Shown one piece after another: positions 3,704 to 60,377 of a stretch of 64,000 nt of DNA. Under the pieces are notes generated by a model. The model ran no database searches and was not told the DNA's origin. It saw only the letters and a list, made by a program, of their open reading frames with translations. Numbering within the stretch: position 1 is the stretch's first letter; each line of letters opens with the position of its first letter. Made by a program: the position numbers and the translations under genes. Source of the stretch: Ottowia flava (lineage in GTDB: Bacteria > Pseudomonadota > Gammaproteobacteria > Burkholderiales > Burkholderiaceae_C); contig NZ_VRUA01000005.1 of NCBI RefSeq assembly GCF_008017535.1, positions 124,001 through 188,000 of the forward strand. The letters are read 5' to 3'.

Positions 3704-4648
3704 TCAGAAGTTGTGACGGATGCCCAGACCGTAGTTGGTCGTGCCGTCCAGACGCAGGCCAGCGGCGTACACGAAGGTGCGCTTGGACAGGGCGTACTTG
3801 CCTTCCACCAGGAAGTTGGTGCGCTTCTTGCCCAGCTGGTTGCGGGTGTCACGAGTGGCGTCAACCGTCAGCGTGAAGGCGCCGAAGTTGGCCGAACCAC
3901 CCAGCGAGAAGCCGCGACGGACTTTCTCTTTGTCGTTGTACGAAGCTGCCAGGGCGAAGTTGCTGAAGCTCCACTTCAGACCAACGCCGTAGCCCAGCTT
4001 GCCGTTCTTCTGCTTGTGAGCAGCCAGGCCAACACCGATCGGGCCGTTGGCGTAAATGGCGTTCACGTCCCAACGGGCGTTGCCAGCGTTGTCGGGCTTG
4101 AAGATGTAGCCGAGTTCGGCGCTGAAGCCACCCAGATCAGGCGTCTTGTAGCTGAACTGGCTGTTGTGGCGAGGCGTAGGATTGCCCGAGAAACCGAAGG
4201 TGTTGGCCACCACGGAGTAGTTGGCAGCGCCGGTCAGTTCCCAAGTAGCCATGCCGTAGAACGACGGGTTCAGCGTACGGCCCAGCTTGAAGGTACCCCA
4301 GCCGCCACCCAGCCACAGGTTGGCTGCACGGCCCCAGAAACCACCACCAGAACCCAGCGAAGCGCCGTCGTCCAGATCCAGACCGGATTCAAAGTTGAAG
4401 CCAGCCTTCAGGCCGCCACCCAGGTCTTCCACGCCGCGCACGCCGATACGGCTGTTGCCGTTGGTCATCAGGCTGCCGCTCTGGAATTCCACTTTGTTGC
4501 TGGCGTCGTTGCCAGGGGTCGTGCCGCCCGAGCCGTATTTCACTTTGCCGATACCAGCGTCGGCCACACCGTACAGGGTGACGGACGACTGAGCCATGGC
4601 GGCGCCGGAAGCCGCGACGACGGCCAGAGCGATAAGCGATTTTTTCAT
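3704..4648 (-). CDS. Gram-negative trimeric porin, paralogue 1
   Basis: Outer-membrane general porin of the Burkholderiales Omp32-like family (Gram_neg_porin), 314 residues. The signal peptide KKSLIALAVVAASGAAMA is cleaved before QSSVTLYGVADAG; the barrel ends in the expected C-terminal phenylalanine (RHNF). ATG 4648 was chosen because the signal peptide begins there and GGAG lies 8 nt upstream; an in-frame start at 4723 would only add a non-conserved tail. A strong terminator follows. The paralogue at 4934-5878 has the same length and a signal peptide identical at protein level. It is probably anion-leaning like other members, but the pore residues were not modelled. Confidence 0.93.
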   Translation of the reverse strand: MKKSLIALAVVAASGAAMAQSSVTLYGVADAGIGKVKYGSGGTTPGNDASNKVEFQSGSLMTNGNSRIGVRGVEDLGGGLKAGFNFESGLDLDDGASLGSGGGFWGRAANLWLGGGWGTFKLGRTLNPSFYGMATWELTGAANYSVVANTFGFSGNPTPRHNSQFSYKTPDLGGFSAELGYIFKPDNAGNARWDVNAIYANGPIGVGLAAHKQKNGKLGYGVGLKWSFSNFALAASYNDKEKVRRGFSLGGSANFGAFTLTVDATRDTRNQLGKKRTNFLVEGKYALSKRTFVYAAGLRLDGTTNYGLGIRHNF

Positions 4649-4808
4649 TGCAAGTTCTCCAAGGTTGAAACAGGGCGCCGGCGCCTGTGTGTTGGACCAC
4701 CACTGCCCAACTTGATCCGGCACAACCCCCCCAATCGGGAAGTTGCCTCTATTGCACCTGTTGTCGGCCGAACTTGCAAAGGTTTCCGTGATGAAACCGG
4801 GCCGGGTC

Positions 4809-4841
4809 GGCGGTTTTGTTGGCCTATTGCAACAAACCGCC
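4809..4841. repeat. Long imperfect inverted repeat between the porins
   Basis: GGCGGTTTTGTTG pairs with CAACAAACCGCC across an 8-nt centre, with a single-base bulge. It lies between the GC hairpin at 4850-4872 and the upstream region of porin 1, and could be part of the transcription stop of porin 2 or of the porin 1 leader. Confidence 0.5.
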
Positions 4842-4849
4842 TCATCTGC

Positions 4850-4872
4850 GCCGGGGCCGTTGCAGCCCCGGC
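4850..4872 (-). terminator. GC hairpin downstream of porin 2
   Basis: GCCGGGGC and GCCCCGGC form a perfect 8-bp stem with a 7-nt loop, 62 bp after the porin 2 stop. On the minus strand it is not followed by a continuous T tract, so termination is plausible but weaker than at 3634-3660. Confidence 0.55.
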
Positions 4873-4933
4873 GGGTTTTGACTCGGTTCAGGCGCCTTGC
4901 ATCAAGACGCCCGAGCCGGGTCGACTACCGCGA

Positions 4934-5878
4934 TCAGAAGTTGTGGCGAACGCCGATGCCGTAGTTGTTCGTCTTGTCCAGACGCAGGAAGGCGCCGTAG
5001 ACGAACGTACGCTTGGACAGCGCGTACTTGGCTTCCACCACGCCGTTCGTGTACTTCTTGCCGCTCCACTCGTTCTTCATGTCGCGGGTCACGTCGACGG
5101 TCACGGTGAAGGCACCGAAGCCAGCCGAAGCACCCAGACCGAAGCCACGGCGGCGGGCATCGCCGCGCGAAGCTTGCGTGTACGAACCGGCGACAGCGAA
5201 GTTGCCGAAGCTGTACTTGGCACCAGCTTGGTAGTTGGTCTTGCCGTCCTTGATCTTGTTGGCGGAGATGCCGGCGCCGATCGGGCCGTTGTTGTACATC
5301 AGGCCCAGATCCCACACGCTGCGGCCAGCGTTGTCGTTCTTGGTGACGTAGGCCACGGCAGCAGAGAAGCCACCGAAGTTAGGCGTCACATAGGCGAAAG
5401 CGCTGTTGGCACGCGAACCGACACCGGCGTAGTTGTAGGTGTTGGCCAGAACCGAGTAGTTGGCGGTGCCGGTCAGTTCGTACGAAGCCGTCGTCAGGTA
5501 GGAAGGCGTGAACTGACGGCCCAGCTTGACGGTACCCCAGTTGCCACCCAGCCACACGTTGGCTTGACGAGCCCAGAAGGCGCCGACAGCAGCGCCGTCG
5601 TCCAGATCCAGACCGGTTTCGAAGTTGAAACCAGCTTTCAGGCCGCCACCGAGGTCTTCGGTGCCGCGCACGCCCAGACGGCTGGTGCCGTTGTTCATCA
5701 GGCTGCCGCTGATGAATTCGGTTTTGTTGCTGGCGTCGGTGGCCGGCTTGTCGCCGCCCGAACCGTACTTGATCTTGCCCACGCCGGCGTCGGCAACGCC
5801 GTACAGGGTCACGGAAGATTGAGCCATGGCGGCGCCGGATGCGGCGACCACTGCCAAAGCGATAAGCGATTTTTTCAT
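4934..5878 (-). CDS. Gram-negative trimeric porin, paralogue 2
   Basis: Outer-membrane porin of the same family and length (314 residues) as the neighbour at 3704-4648. Signal peptide KKSLIALAVVAASGAAMA, mature start QSSVTLYGVADAG, C-terminus GVRHNF. ATG 5878 is preceded by GGAGA with a 7-nt spacer; the longer frame from 5926 lacks conserved sequence. The loops differ from paralogue 1 (for example DKPATDASNKTEF here against TTPGNDASNKVEF), while strands and signal peptide are nearly the same. The pair looks like a tandem duplication with diverged loops. Each copy has its own downstream hairpin, so the two are probably separate transcripts. Confidence 0.93.
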   Translation of the reverse strand: MKKSLIALAVVAASGAAMAQSSVTLYGVADAGVGKIKYGSGGDKPATDASNKTEFISGSLMNNGTSRLGVRGTEDLGGGLKAGFNFETGLDLDDGAAVGAFWARQANVWLGGNWGTVKLGRQFTPSYLTTASYELTGTANYSVLANTYNYAGVGSRANSAFAYVTPNFGGFSAAVAYVTKNDNAGRSVWDLGLMYNNGPIGAGISANKIKDGKTNYQAGAKYSFGNFAVAGSYTQASRGDARRRGFGLGASAGFGAFTVTVDVTRDMKNEWSGKKYTNGVVEAKYALSKRTFVYGAFLRLDKTNNYGIGVRHNF

Positions 5879-7753: not shown

Positions 7754-7847
7754 TCAAGCGGATGGGTTTCCATCTGCACCGTTTGTCTCCTCCACCCCTT
7801 CAATAGGTGGATTAAGCCCCGGCGCTCTGGCTCCGGGGCTTTTTTTT
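7754..7847 (+). ncRNA. Candidate small RNA with CUCCUCC motif and own terminator
   Basis: A stand-alone unit between the OsmC-family gene and ilvA. A -10-like TACACT (7743-7748) is followed by hairpin 1 GATGG-gttt-CCATC (7761-7774), a single-stranded stretch with GTCTCCTCC (7785-7793), hairpin 2 TCCACC/GGTGGA (7791-7811) and a terminator (7815-7847). About 94 nt, three stems with an exposed anti-Shine-Dalgarno-like motif: the shape of an Hfq-type regulatory RNA. The open frame across it is not rich in Ile, Val or Leu codons, which argues against a classical ilvA attenuator. No -35 box is convincing. Confidence 0.6.
7815..7847 (+). terminator. Rho-independent terminator ahead of ilvA
   Basis: AGCCCCGG (7815-7822) pairs perfectly with CCGGGGCT (7833-7840) around a 10-nt loop and is followed by seven more T residues. 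It ends the candidate small RNA 96 bp before ilvA. Confidence 0.93.
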
Positions 7848-11032: not shown

Positions 11033-11220
11033 ACCCCCCTGAGTCGCCTTTGGCGCCTTCCCCCCGCTCTCTGCGCGCTGACGCGCTTCGGGCAGGGGGA
11101 CAACGCCAGTTGCCGGCACAGGTCCGGCAACGGCGTTCGCTGGACTGGCCTGCTCCGCGGCCGTTGGCTCCTCGGGGTGCAGAAGGCGGCTGGGCTTGTG
11201 CGGGCTTTGCGCCTGAACAC
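11033..11220 (+). repeat. Repeat B copy 1
   Basis: Begins 9 nt after the gspG stop with CCCCCCTGAGTCGCC, has CGCTCTCTGCGCGCTGACG and a long hairpin at 11102-11137 (TTGCCGG/CCGGCAA flanked by AACGCC/GGCGTT), then GGCCTGCTCCGCGGCCG and a GGCGGCTGGGCTTGTGCGGG end. Longest type of copy. Confidence 0.85.
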
Positions 11221-11290
11221 TGCCTGAACAGCGGGCCCATGCTTGCCGCCGGTGGCGCGCAATGAGACGCCCGCTCAACCCCTCTTTGCT

Positions 11291-11350
11291 TCTAAAATGC
11301 TAGCTACCCGCGAAGACGGGACTAGGGCTAGAGGCATGTTTCACTTAAAT
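11291..11350 (+). repeat. Repeat A copy 5, overlapping the gspH start
   Basis: ATGCTAGCTACCCGCG, then CTAGGGCTAGAGGC and a TTCACTTAAA right end. The ATG of gspH (11336) and the AGGG before it lie inside this copy. Confidence 0.65.
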
Positions 11351-12165: not shown

Positions 12166-12170
12166 CGGTG

Positions 12171-12360
12171 CCCCCCCCTGAGTCGCCTTCGGCGCCATCC
12201 CCCCGCTCTCTCCGCGCTGACGCGCTTCGGGCTGGGGGACAACGCCAGTGCTCGGCACAAGCCCGAGCACGGCGTGCGCTGAACTGGCCTGCTCCGCGGC
12301 CGTTCGCTCGGGGGAATGCGGGGCTGGGCTGGGCTTTTGCCGGTGCAGCGCTGGCTTGGC
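12171..12360 (+). repeat. Repeat B copy 2
   Basis: Begins 5 nt after the gspI stop: CCCCCCCTGAGTCGCC, CGCTCTCTCCGCGCTGACG, hairpin 12241-12275 with stem TGCTCGG/CCGAGCA, then GGCCTGCTCCGCGGCCG. The stem sequence differs from copy 1 at paired positions on both sides. Confidence 0.85.
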
Positions 12361-12401
12361 GGCCGACACCGGGTCCTTCGGCCAGCCCTGTTGTCGCTAC
12401 C

Positions 12402-12459
12402 GATTTCGCAGCTGCTGGCGCACATGGTTCTAGGGCCAGAGGCCGATTTGGTTTGAAAA
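12402..12459 (+). repeat. Repeat A copy 6, carrying the gspJ start
   Basis: GCAGCTGCTGGCGCACATGG, TTCTAGGGCCAGAGGCCGAT and the right end TTGGTTTGAAAA. The AGAGG and the proposed TTG start of gspJ (12453) are both repeat sequence. Confidence 0.75.
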
Positions 12460-25338: not shown

Positions 25339-25384
25339 GTTCTTTCTCCTAATTCAATTCAGTACTTGCCGGTCGTGCCGCGCC

Positions 25385-25473
25385 CGCCTTACCAGCGAAC
25401 GCCGTTGCCGGACCTGTGCCGGCAACTGGCGTTGTCCCCCTTGAGGGGGAAGGCGCGCAGCGACTCAGGGGGT
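25385..25473 (-). repeat. Repeat B copy 3 (shortened)
   Basis: Begins 9 nt after the soxY stop with CCCCCTGAGTCGC in the minus direction; hairpin 25398-25433 with stem TTGCCGG/CCGGCAA. It lacks the GC-rich tail of copies 1, 2 and 5, and no A repeat follows. Confidence 0.8.
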
Positions 25474-25482
25474 GACCATCAG

Positions 25483-37622: not shown

Positions 37623-39497
37623 TCAGGCGCTGCGACGGCGCAGCGCCAGCCCGCCGATCGCCGCGGCCAGCGCGCCCAGCAGCAGCAAGCCCCACTGGCC
37701 CAGCGTGGGCACCGGCACCGGCGGCGCGGCGGCAAATACAGCCGCGACCGCACGCGCCTGGTCCATGGTGACGGTGCAGCTGTTGCCCGTGGCGCCGGCG
37801 CATGCACCGCCCCAGCTGACGATCTCGCCAGCGGGCGGAGTCGCGGTGAGCGTGACGTTGGGCACCAAGTTGCTGTCGTAGTCGGCCTGGCAAGCTGCGC
37901 CGCCCTGGCTGGCGCAGGCGTTGATGCCGCCGGCCAGCGGCGCGGGCGTGGCGCCGGCGCTGACACTGCCGTTGCCGGTGACGGCGACGATCAAGCCGAC
38001 GGGGAGGGCCGGCGCGGCGGCAAACGCGGCCGTGACCGCACGCGCCTGGTCCATGGTGACAATGCAGCTGTTGCCCGTGGCGCCGGCGCAGGCGCCGCCC
38101 CAGGAGACGACCTCGCCGGCGGGTGGCGTGGCGGTGAGCGTGACGTTGGGCACCAAGTTGCTGTCGTAGTCGGCCTGGCAAGCTGCGCCGCCCTGGCTGG
38201 TGCAGGCGCTGATGCCGCCGGCCAGCGGCGCGGGTGTGGCGCCGGCGCTGACGCTGCCGTTGCCTGTGACCGCCACAACAACGGTCGCCGCGGTTCGCAC
38301 CAGCTGCACGGCGCCCGCGTCCAAGCAGGTGCCCGCAGGCACCGCCGAGGTGCGCGGCTGGCCGCGCTGGTCGGTCGTGGTGCCAGCCGGCAGCAGGCTG
38401 ACGTCGCCCGCGCAAAGGGCCGCGCCTTGCGGCAGCATCGTCTGGGTCAGGCCGCCGTGGTTGCCCAGGGCACCCAGAGGCGCGGCGGTGGTGATGATGG
38501 GGCTGGTAGTGCCGTAGGTCGTGGCGTCATCGGCCATGCCAGCGATCGTGTTATTGAAGAAAACGTTGCGGCTACCGGCGATACTCCCCCACAGTGCACC
38601 TCCTAAAAATGTCGACACGTTATCCGTGAACACGTTGTTGTCAATGCCCGCGAGCGACACTGCAAAAATTGCCGCACCCCCACTGGCTCGGTTGGCCGAA
38701 AATGTGTTGTTCCGGATCGAGGCTGCGCCAACGACAAACACAGCGCCGCCCGGCAGCTCAGCTCGGTTGTCCTCAAAAGTGTTGTTGACTGCGGTGAGCA
38801 CACTGTCGTTGTTCGCGTTGATGGCCCCACCGCTACTGTCGGCGGCGTTGCCGCTAAAGGTATTGGCTACAAAGGAACCGTTGGAAGCGACACCCCAAAC
38901 GAATGCGGCGCCTCCGTAAAAGCTCGCACTGTTGTTTTCAAAAGTGGTGTCGGTCACCGCGAGCGTCCCGTTTGAGGCCGCCAAGCCTCCGCCGAAGCCG
39001 GCCGTGTTGTTGCGAACCACGCTGTCCGCCAAGCTCAGCGTGGCACCTTGGCTGACATAGACAGCCCCGCCCCAGTCATTCGGATGGTTGCGCTGAGCGC
39101 TGCCATCAGCCAAGGTCACGCCGCTGAGCGTGAGGCTGCCCGCAGAAACGGTCAGAATCCGGACCGCGCCCTGGCCGCTCAGCGTCAGCTGGGCTGCGCC
39201 AGGGCCATGAATGGTCAGGTTCTTGCTCACCACCAGCTCGGCCACCAAGGGGATGATGCCAGTGCCGCTGAACTGGATGGTGTCGCCCGCCGCTGCGGCG
39301 GCGGCGATGGCGTCGCGCAAGGTGGCGCACTGGTTGCCGACGCTGCACGGGGCGGTGGTGGCGTTGTCGCCCACGCTGGTCACCGTCCAGGTGGCGGCCT
39401 GGGCGGCGCCGGCGGCCAGCAGGACGGCCTGCAAGACGGCGGCGCGCCGCAGCGCAGAAGCGCGGCGGCGCGAAGAGGTCACGGGACAAGACAACAT
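37623..39497 (-). CDS. IPTL-CTERM beta-helix surface protein
   Basis: Exported protein of 624 residues. Signal peptide (RRRASALRRAAVLQAVLLAAGAAQA, split here as RRRASALRRAAV and LQAVLLAAGAAQA), a right-handed beta-helix with repeated GGA/NNTF motifs (about 90-340), a choice-of-anchor Q-like segment, two tandem 96-residue InlB-B-like repeats (about 395-590), and a C-terminal sorting signal VPTLGQWG (from about 596), membrane helix and RRRSA. This tail is the substrate mark of exosortase XrtH. ATG 39497 has AAGGTG eight bases upstream; the longer frame to 39710 is not conserved. Probably displayed on the cell surface. Confidence 0.85.
   Translation of the reverse strand: MLSCPVTSSRRRASALRRAAVLQAVLLAAGAAQAATWTVTSVGDNATTAPCSVGNQCATLRDAIAAAAAAGDTIQFSGTGIIPLVAELVVSKNLTIHGPGAAQLTLSGQGAVRILTVSAGSLTLSGVTLADGSAQRNHPNDWGGAVYVSQGATLSLADSVVRNNTAGFGGGLAASNGTLAVTDTTFENNSASFYGGAAFVWGVASNGSFVANTFSGNAADSSGGAINANNDSVLTAVNNTFEDNRAELPGGAVFVVGAASIRNNTFSANRASGGAAIFAVSLAGIDNNVFTDNVSTFLGGALWGSIAGSRNVFFNNTIAGMADDATTYGTTSPIITTAAPLGALGNHGGLTQTMLPQGAALCAGDVSLLPAGTTTDQRGQPRTSAVPAGTCLDAGAVQLVRTAATVVVAVTGNGSVSAGATPAPLAGGISACTSQGGAACQADYDSNLVPNVTLTATPPAGEVVSWGGACAGATGNSCIVTMDQARAVTAAFAAAPALPVGLIVAVTGNGSVSAGATPAPLAGGINACASQGGAACQADYDSNLVPNVTLTATPPAGEIVSWGGACAGATGNSCTVTMDQARAVAAVFAAAPPVPVPTLGQWGLLLLGALAAAIGGLALRRRSA
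37729..38280 (-). repeat. 288-bp tandem duplication in the IPTL-CTERM gene
   Basis: Two nearly identical blocks offset by exactly 288 bp (96 codons), each encoding VAVTGNGSVSAGATPAPLAG and, further on, ACQADYDSNLVPNVTLTATP. High DNA identity points to recent duplication or gene conversion. Confidence 0.9.
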
Positions 39498-41958: not shown

Positions 41959-42018
41959 TAAGTGTCAAATCGGCGTCTGGCCCTGGCGCAGCTTGCGCGG
42001 CCAGCTATCAATTAAGTA
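41959..42018 (-). repeat. Repeat A copy 13
   Basis: Minus strand: TACTTAATTGATAGCTGGCC, GCGCAAGCTGCGCCAGGGCC, AGACGCCGATTTGACACTTA. Four bases separate it from the ATG of the dihydroorotase-like gene. Confidence 0.75.
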
Positions 42019-42040
42019 GTTCACACAAGGCCTGATCAGC

Positions 42041-42173
42041 CCACGCACCCGATCGAATGGCCGCGGAGCAGGCCACGCCAGCAGCCGCCCTGGCCGGGCT
42101 TGCACCGGCCAGCGGCGGCGCCCCCTCGAGGGGGGTGGCGCAACAGCGCGCAGCGCGTGGAGCCTGGGGGTGG
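42041..42173 (-). repeat. Repeat B copy 4
   Basis: Begins 6 nt after the pyrB stop; hairpin 42084-42120 with stem TGGCCGG/CCGGCCA flanked by GCCGCC/GGCGGC; ends with GGCCTGCTCCGCGGCC. Its stop-proximal end is more diverged than in the other copies. Confidence 0.75.
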
Positions 42174-60100: not shown

Positions 60101-60158
60101 GAACCAAATCAGCCGCTCGCCCTAGTGCAATCTGCGCAGGCAGCTATGAAATTAAAAG
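60101..60158 (-). repeat. Repeat A copy 18, upstream of purH
   Basis: Minus strand: TTTAATTTCATAGCTGCCTG, CGCAGATTGCACTAGGGCGA, GCGGCTGATTTGGTTCTTAA. Confidence 0.75.
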
Positions 60159-60199
60159 CAAATGGGCAAACCCGCACGCAATAACGTCGCCAGCCGACC

Positions 60200-60377
60200 C
60201 GCCCGCGCAAGCCCAGCCGCCGTCCGCATCGCACCACCGATCAAATGGCCGCGGAGCAGGCCAAGCCAACGAACGCCATGCCCGGACCTGCGCCGGGCAT
60301 TGGCGTTGTCCCCCCTCCCGCAGCGCGCAGCGCGGAGAGTGAGGGGGGAAGGCGCCGCCAGGCGACTCAGGGGGGGT
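60200..60377 (-). repeat. Repeat B copy 5
   Basis: Begins 5 nt after the fis stop with CCCCCCTGAGTCGCC on the minus strand; hairpin 60272-60307 with stem TGCCCGG/CCGGGCA flanked by AACGCC/GGCGTT; then GGCCTGCTCCGCGGCC and the CGGCTGGGCTTGCGCGGG end. Confidence 0.85.

Follow-up and report, generated by a model that had tools for sequence, protein, structure and literature searches.

Four pairs of co-directional genes in one stretch of the Ottowia flava genome (64,000 nt of contig NZ_VRUA01000005.1, hereafter the window) are separated by spacers of the same composition, in which the stop codon of the upstream gene is followed by a repeat called B, a repeat called A, and the start codon of the downstream gene. 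Are such spacers copies of one organised set acting on polycistronic mRNA, as the first-pass annotation proposed, or do two distinct repeats share the same gaps? Coordinates and order of the components, read directly in the sequence, are correct in all four spacers (Table 1). A fifth B, close to the stop of soxY and devoid of A, is supported by the sequence and by R1, the covariance/profile model of B (R2 is the corresponding model of A), and all five B copies lie in the sense of the genes. B had been placed 5-9 nt past the stop. Measured up to where ACCCC first appears, the distances are indeed 9, 6, 8, 6 and 8 nt, but the R1 match at pyrB begins 20 nt past the stop, and this copy was entered as 20 nt in the distance counts, which use the start of the R1 match rather than the C-run. 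GspG, GspI, PyrB, dihydroorotase, Fis, PurH, SoxY and SoxZ score above the NCBIfam cut-off; GspH and GspJ are the best NCBIfam matches for their genes, yet fall below it. Allowing 3 mismatches at most, the window contains the B core GGCCTGCTCCGCGGCCNTT 4 times, whereas 0.29 occurrences would be expected by chance. The window makes up 1.6% of the genome but holds 5 of the at least 59 strong B copies, and is thus a lopsided sample. R2 finds 15 A matches in it (E <= 0.05), 4 of which reside in the same gap as B.

Table 1. Position and gene context of the B and A repeats discussed in the text (window coordinates)
Repeat	Position	Strand	Context	Evidence	Remarks
B	11033..11165	+	gspG/gspH gap, 9 nt past gspG TAA	R1, 144.6 bits	
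B	12172..12304	+	gspI/gspJ gap, 6 nt past gspI TAG	R1, 130 bits	
B	42056..42159	-	pyrB/pyrC' gap	R1, 72.3 bits, and sequence	5' part divergent, C-run from about 42171
B	60244..60376	-	fis/purH gap, 6 nt past fis TGA	R1, 136.7 bits	
B	25373..25474	-	soxY/soxZ gap, 8 nt past soxY TAA	R1, 84.2 bits, and sequence	short, without helix 4 (the GGCCTGCTCCGCGGCC helix); no A
A	11288..11342	+	overlaps gspH ATG	R2, 50.1 bits	
A	12396..12450	+	ends 2 nt short of gspJ TTG	R2, 66.7 bits	
A	41966..42020	-	11 nt upstream of pyrC' ATG	R2, 54.3 bits	
A	60105..60159	-	21 nt upstream of purH ATG	R2, 63.2 bits	

A search of the whole window against Rfam release 15 (E <= 1) gave four matches, none of which falls on A or B. 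The Betaproteobacteria toxic small RNA RF02278 matches positions 7784-7847 of the plus strand with a score of 58.4, the gathering score being 50. Other sequence duplications were noted in the window. Positions 37711-38276 contain a 278-nt tandem repeat (90% identity) within a predicted minus-strand gene, and two adjacent predicted genes of 945 nt at 3704-5878 share stretches of 75-84% identity.

The position of B relative to stop codons was analyzed throughout the genome of the organism (4.12 Mb in 53 contigs, genes called by a purpose-written codon-usage caller). At least 69 R1 matches were found at E <= 0.1 among the best 150 of 7842 candidates. The set used includes 59 of 68 R1 matches, those reaching 50 bits or more, six antisense shadows and three weak matches having been left out; the figure of 59 is a lower bound, the seeds having been taken from the helix-4 pattern. 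A stop codon on the same strand lies upstream of 58 of the 59 copies, and 48 of the 59 begin at -2 to 10 nt from it, while random placement within the same gaps yields 3.4 on average and 13 at most in 20000 trials. The preference for the first 10 nt past stops, a test set beforehand, is thereby confirmed. The same result was obtained independently of the caller, by asking for an open frame of at least 60 codons whose end lies no more than 12 nt upstream of B or reaches 2 nt inside it. Such a frame precedes 48/59 B copies, against 19/472 shifted positions, 4/59 sites on the other strand and 145/1032 random gap positions. A few copies of B supply the stop themselves, either within TAACCCC or, at a distance of -10, through the TGA contained in CCCCCTGAG.

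Stop anchoring extends to other bacteria. Within the genus, 25 of 28 B copies follow a stop on the same strand, 22 of them at -2 to 20 nt, and three are placed otherwise. The corresponding figures are 71 of 75 (55 at -2 to 20 nt, four placed otherwise) in named records, among which Pseudacidovorax, Paracidovorax, Ottowia, Curvibacter, Variovorax and Xylophilus, and 21 of 21 (18 at -2 to 20 nt) in three other genera of the family. The named-record set represents 75 of 97 matches, since three truncated or incomplete rows and 19 matches scoring under 42.8 bits were left out; it overlaps the same-genus set at two loci (L102 = L141, L120 = L203). The three-genera set represents the 21 of 30 loci that are not from the own genome, and the match start was set there to locus position 1501. 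The preference for intra-operon gaps is a different matter. In the own genome the next gene is co-directional at 52 B stops and is not at 6, the control stops giving 370:154 (Fisher P 0.0017), but the ratio weakens to 55:14 in the named records of other genera and to 12:9 in the three other genera of the family, so that a co-directional context is not a defining property of B. The repeat is also found ahead of convergent genes, in 6 of 58 cases in the own genome and in 14 and 9 cases in the two other sets.

A is a different entity. It is a 55-mer with a conserved sequence, for which the R2 model gave no convincing consensus structure. All of the best 150 candidates in the own genome matched, so that at least 150 copies are present. 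As 118 matches (R2, E <= 0.05) occur in 584 kb, made up of the window and control stretches, while strong B copies number 59 in the whole genome, A is by extrapolation about ten times as frequent as B. The controls are 26 stretches (520 kb) hand-picked at round coordinates with the list of B copies already known; they hold no B of 50 bits or more, where about 7 would be expected, and were used for A and gap statistics only. For gap counts, A copies were defined by a nhmmer score of at least 15, giving 133 hits in 584 kb, 110 of which lie within gaps. In co-directional gaps, the four window gaps with B included, the two strands are represented 34:30. Convergent gaps contain A in 37 of 77 cases, compared with 6 of 71 for divergent gaps, so that A is densest between convergent genes, where an intercistronic module would make no sense.

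Nevertheless, A and B meet more often than expected. Of 52 co-directional gaps carrying B, 19 also host A, against 10.0 predicted from gaps of matching free length in the hand-picked control stretches (P 0.002); the prediction falls to 6.3 when B is counted as 190 nt. Across all 59 B gaps, A is found 17 times in the gene sense and 7 times in the opposite one. Given this roughly two-fold enrichment, chance alone is not sufficient to account for the pairing. The order B-then-A, in turn, is a consequence of the location of B at the stop. That stop, B, A and start constitute a single functional unit would agree with the enrichment, and with the succession of B and A at fis/purH and in gsp gaps of several species, but 33 of the 52 co-directional B gaps lack A, and A is strand-independent and frequent between convergent genes; such a unit is highly improbable. 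The idea of an organised set of elements is therefore sustained for B, which is anchored to stops, oriented with the genes and mostly found in co-directional gaps, and fails for A, mostly found away from B and on both strands. Likewise, co-occurrence above expectation is real as a tendency and not as a rule. The best reading is that the supposed module represents for the most part two independent repeats in one gap, whose co-occurrence, though genuine, is modest.

The 3' tail of A (..TTTGG.TTGAAA) seems to provide the start codon of the next gene, and perhaps a ribosome site, at window positions 12430-12455 and in the gsp gaps of loci L119 and L120. Two A copies in opposite orientation (L248, 691-745 on the plus and 2165-2219 on the minus strand) flank the only Y1-transposase gene found in the own genome; no B match lies beside this gene. 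The hypothesis that this resident transposase moves A or B was discarded, the flanking pair being weak evidence in view of the high density of A.

R1 was built from 19 B copies, and comprises 131 positions, 32 pairs and 4 helices. A leader, ACCCCCCTGAG, is followed by a small hairpin, by a hairpin formed by a C-run and a G-run separated by a variable insert (helix 2), by helix 3, which is long and variable in sequence but keeps its pairing, and by GGCCTGCTCCGCGGCC (helix 4), which is missing in some copies. The motif ACAACG follows the G-strand of helix 2 in most of the 19 copies. Folds of individual copies often have the leader paired, with a median probability of 0.67 over 52 copies. The elements do not resemble intrinsic terminators, in which a T run comes immediately after a GC stem, as far as shown by the aligned tails of the 21 of 59 copies that end in helix 4, where a conserved T run is missing.

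Two other features of B were considered and set aside. A helix closing the whole element, in which the leader would pair with a GGGG past helix 3, shows up in some single folds, but the partner is not conserved. In the own genome, 41 of 58 stops with B have an ATG or GTG at -4 to +10, a share that is lower, 63 of 193, among control stops. The idea of a short frame translated from within B was rejected, since on reading the sequences the ATG or GTG preceding many copies lies in differing frames relative to the C-run.

The helices of B covary. Among 92 distinct sequences taken from other genomes, both sides have changed in 25 of the 32 pairs, for a total of 277 such cells, and 96.3% of cells are paired, against 84.5% in shuffled and 40-53% in slid alignments; as the alignment was fitted to R1, pair counts are tilted towards the structure. 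Evidence on the nature of the folded molecule comes from the imbalance between G-U and A-C oppositions. In an alignment of the 59 own copies made by MAFFT with no structural information, G-U cells on the gene-sense strand number 62 and A-C cells 28 (P 0.0004, assuming independent cells). Such an excess suggests that B folds as RNA, since a DNA hairpin would favour neither strand. The result is not explained by a mutation bias. In paired columns of the same copies C is changed to U in 102/1493 cells and G to A in 63/1520, whereas unpaired columns exhibit the opposite bias (68/1115 and 84/839, respectively). In model-fitted alignments the G-U to A-C ratio is 56:17 in the own copies and 45:25 in the other genomes, where the excess is weaker (P 0.02). 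All these P values are optimistic, because a structural model was used to find the copies, which are moreover related to each other.

As a repeat, B belongs to the family Comamonadaceae, where many bacteria carry it. R1 matches were found in 26 of 60 relatives, corresponding to 22 of the 29 genomes of the genus (own included) and to four other genera of the family, and in none of 24 genomes from other families. Seven of the 29 genomes of the genus lack B, among which two (G005 and G024) of 99% completeness. In an order-wide draw of 300 genomes, searched through the best 11 candidates per genome, five match R1 at E <= 1e-6, and all belong to the family; as weak matches can be lost in this way, B is better said not to have been seen outside the family than to be absent there. 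Orthologous gaps, compared by eye, are variously occupied. At fis/purH, B lies straight after the fis stop in the own genome (G000) and in five others (G016, G011, G023, G010, G003), and other species have A alone or a short gap. At pyrB/pyrC', B is found in G000 and G017, and elsewhere the genes overlap by 4 nt or are separated by a short gap, by A without B, or by different sequence. In the gsp operon the gap hosting B differs between species, and G023 has B in three gsp gaps, as R1 also indicates. Nine copies residing at the same site in other species rank from the 12th to the 84th percentile of similarity to own paralogues. Same-site copies being no closer than paralogues, old age, conversion and re-acquisition are indistinguishable, and so is selection in place.

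A further GC-rich repeat, GCCCCCACGCTCCCCC...CCCCGAGGGGGC..., occurs in three tandem copies straight after the stop in the gap 3' of gspI at locus L112, and a similar stretch was noticed in the gap 3' of gspJ at L113. The two may represent a second stop-anchored family.

Dispersal and uneven occupancy raise the issue of mobility. B might be a non-autonomous mobile repeat, inserted preferentially at stops or tolerated only there, whose hairpins would serve transposition and which would exert no function for the host. The dispersed copies, the tandem pairs found at four loci (L010, L086, L092, L183), the scarce similarity of same-site copies, and the fact that orthologous gaps free of B are very short or overlapping (TGA-ATG at gspI/gspJ; -4 or +1 nt at pyrB/pyrC) are in line with this scenario. 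Yet the distance from the stop ranges from -2 to 10 nt, hence there is no fixed insertion point, neither terminal repeats nor target duplications were seen by eye in the sequences used for the same-gap comparison, and the G-U bias speaks for RNA and for one strand. As to the enzyme, and limited to the Y1 family, one gene is present in the own genome; the search detected none in G016 or G017, where B matches number 49 and 45, respectively. Mobility with no host function is thus a rather unlikely account of B.

B is a structured element, with covarying helices and a strand-specific RNA signature, anchored to stops, spread in one family and partly independent of A. Orientation, anchoring and G-U signature together argue for an action at the RNA level. 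From sequence evidence, B is probably, though by no means surely, a stop-anchored, REP-like mRNA element, with the role that a large intercistronic REP would have at the 3' end of the upstream cistron. The C-rich leader begins mostly -2 to 10 nt past the stop, and the four hairpins follow. From the stop, it takes about 10-22 nt to reach the first conserved paired base and some 25-37 nt to reach the strong C/G helix. In view of the footprint of a terminating ribosome, most of the B fold would lie beyond a ribosome located at the stop. According to this hypothesis, the hairpin cluster would halt 3'-5' exonucleases, and would thus define and stabilise the 3' end of the upstream cistron. Between genes, it may also decouple the translation of the two cistrons; any selective benefit is one that we infer. 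A role at the 3' end is preferred because B is found ahead of convergent genes too, where only the upstream message can be served, and because the strong helices start about 25 nt or more past the stop. A would be a separate REP-like intergenic repeat, indifferent to orientation and sharing some of the B gaps.

The same distances bear on another possibility. REPs located within 15 nt of stops in E. coli provide a precedent (as described in the accessible part of PMC12306157) for an action on the terminating ribosome, and by analogy B may slow termination, elicit trans-translation, and lower the amount of the upstream protein. Of the 58 copies following a stop, 51 either overlap it or begin at most 15 nt past it, and the first conserved paired base is still within this limit in 23 of the 48 copies starting at -2 to 10 nt. 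The limit is exceeded, however, by the first conserved helix of the other 25, and the distance to the strong C/G helix is about 25-37 nt throughout. A direct effect on termination is rather unlikely, but still a serious competitor, as about half of the copies have their first conserved helix inside the E. coli limit. A more elaborate arrangement was considered, in which B would be a ribosome-gated RNA switch, its single G-run being contested by two C-runs, one in the leader and one in helix 2. A ribosome terminating at the stop would mask the leader, allowing helix 2 to form, while untranslated messages would fold in the alternative way. The length of the leader run correlates with that of the G-run (Spearman 0.56 in 47 of 59 own copies, 0.33 in 57 of 97 others), and leader/G-run complementarity in 120 copies, parsed out of 151 distinct B sequences, is 6.25, against 5.95 for randomly paired copies (0/5000 permutations). 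The leader, in turn, tracks the other C-run at least equally (0.58 and 0.59), and contrasts between sister pairs show run lengths changing in the same direction in 9 cases, in the opposite direction in 4, and unchanged in 12. Relatedness alone can generate such correlations, and the switch is very unlikely.

If B works as an mRNA element, the tens of stop-linked sites present in each genome would form a natural library of structures located behind stops, suited to address termination, the formation of mRNA ends and gene balance within operons. Natural pairs with and without the element exist, as related species carry or lack B at one gene pair. B would moreover be an unannotated RNA element to be added to many Comamonadaceae genomes.

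Searches of the open-licence literature brought up no description of B, and the accessible portions of PMC12320835, PMC2755013 and PMC2864571 contain nothing on it. Several known repeats resemble either B or A. Betaproteobacterial repeat elements (BRE), 75-91 bp at full length and reported in Bordetella and Comamonadaceae (PMC3110155, as far as available), resemble B, by description only, in being GC-rich, mostly intergenic and sometimes tandem, but are shorter. Two motifs of Acidovorax ebreus and Polaromonas naphthalenivorans, described in the available part of PMC5217627, resemble A in both sequence and gene context; B goes unmentioned there. GCTTAT(N)5AAGCG counts 114 copies, of which 44 convergent, 4 divergent and 59 co-oriented; ATAGCT(N)22CAAAAG counts 125. 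The former motif was found in 10 of 362 fetched loci, and at least 4 of these (L113, L312, L314, L316) are A copies. REPs tagged by GTAG or CGTC are 20-40 bp palindromes, and the GTAG end often provides a stop codon; the main text, so far as accessible, makes no mention of Acidovorax, Delftia, Variovorax or Comamonas (PMC3733652). A is closer than B to these repeats. B shares with them the location in co-directional or convergent gaps near 3' ends, and the TGA or TAA sometimes used as stop; intergenic and near the 3' end of genes (58 of 59 past a same-strand stop, 48 at -2 to 10 nt), it departs from a single palindrome of 20-40 bp by its 32 pairs. REPs of E. coli lie within 15 nt of stops in 446 of 4,072 cases, or in 260 of 496 according to an earlier count (PMC12306157, accessible part). 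As judged from the same source, B is like them in consisting of intergenic hairpins, which in E. coli are in some cases within 15 nt of a stop and for which an action on mRNA has been proposed, and unlike them in spanning 131 model positions and 4 helices, in having a single orientation, and in being nearly always proximal to a stop.
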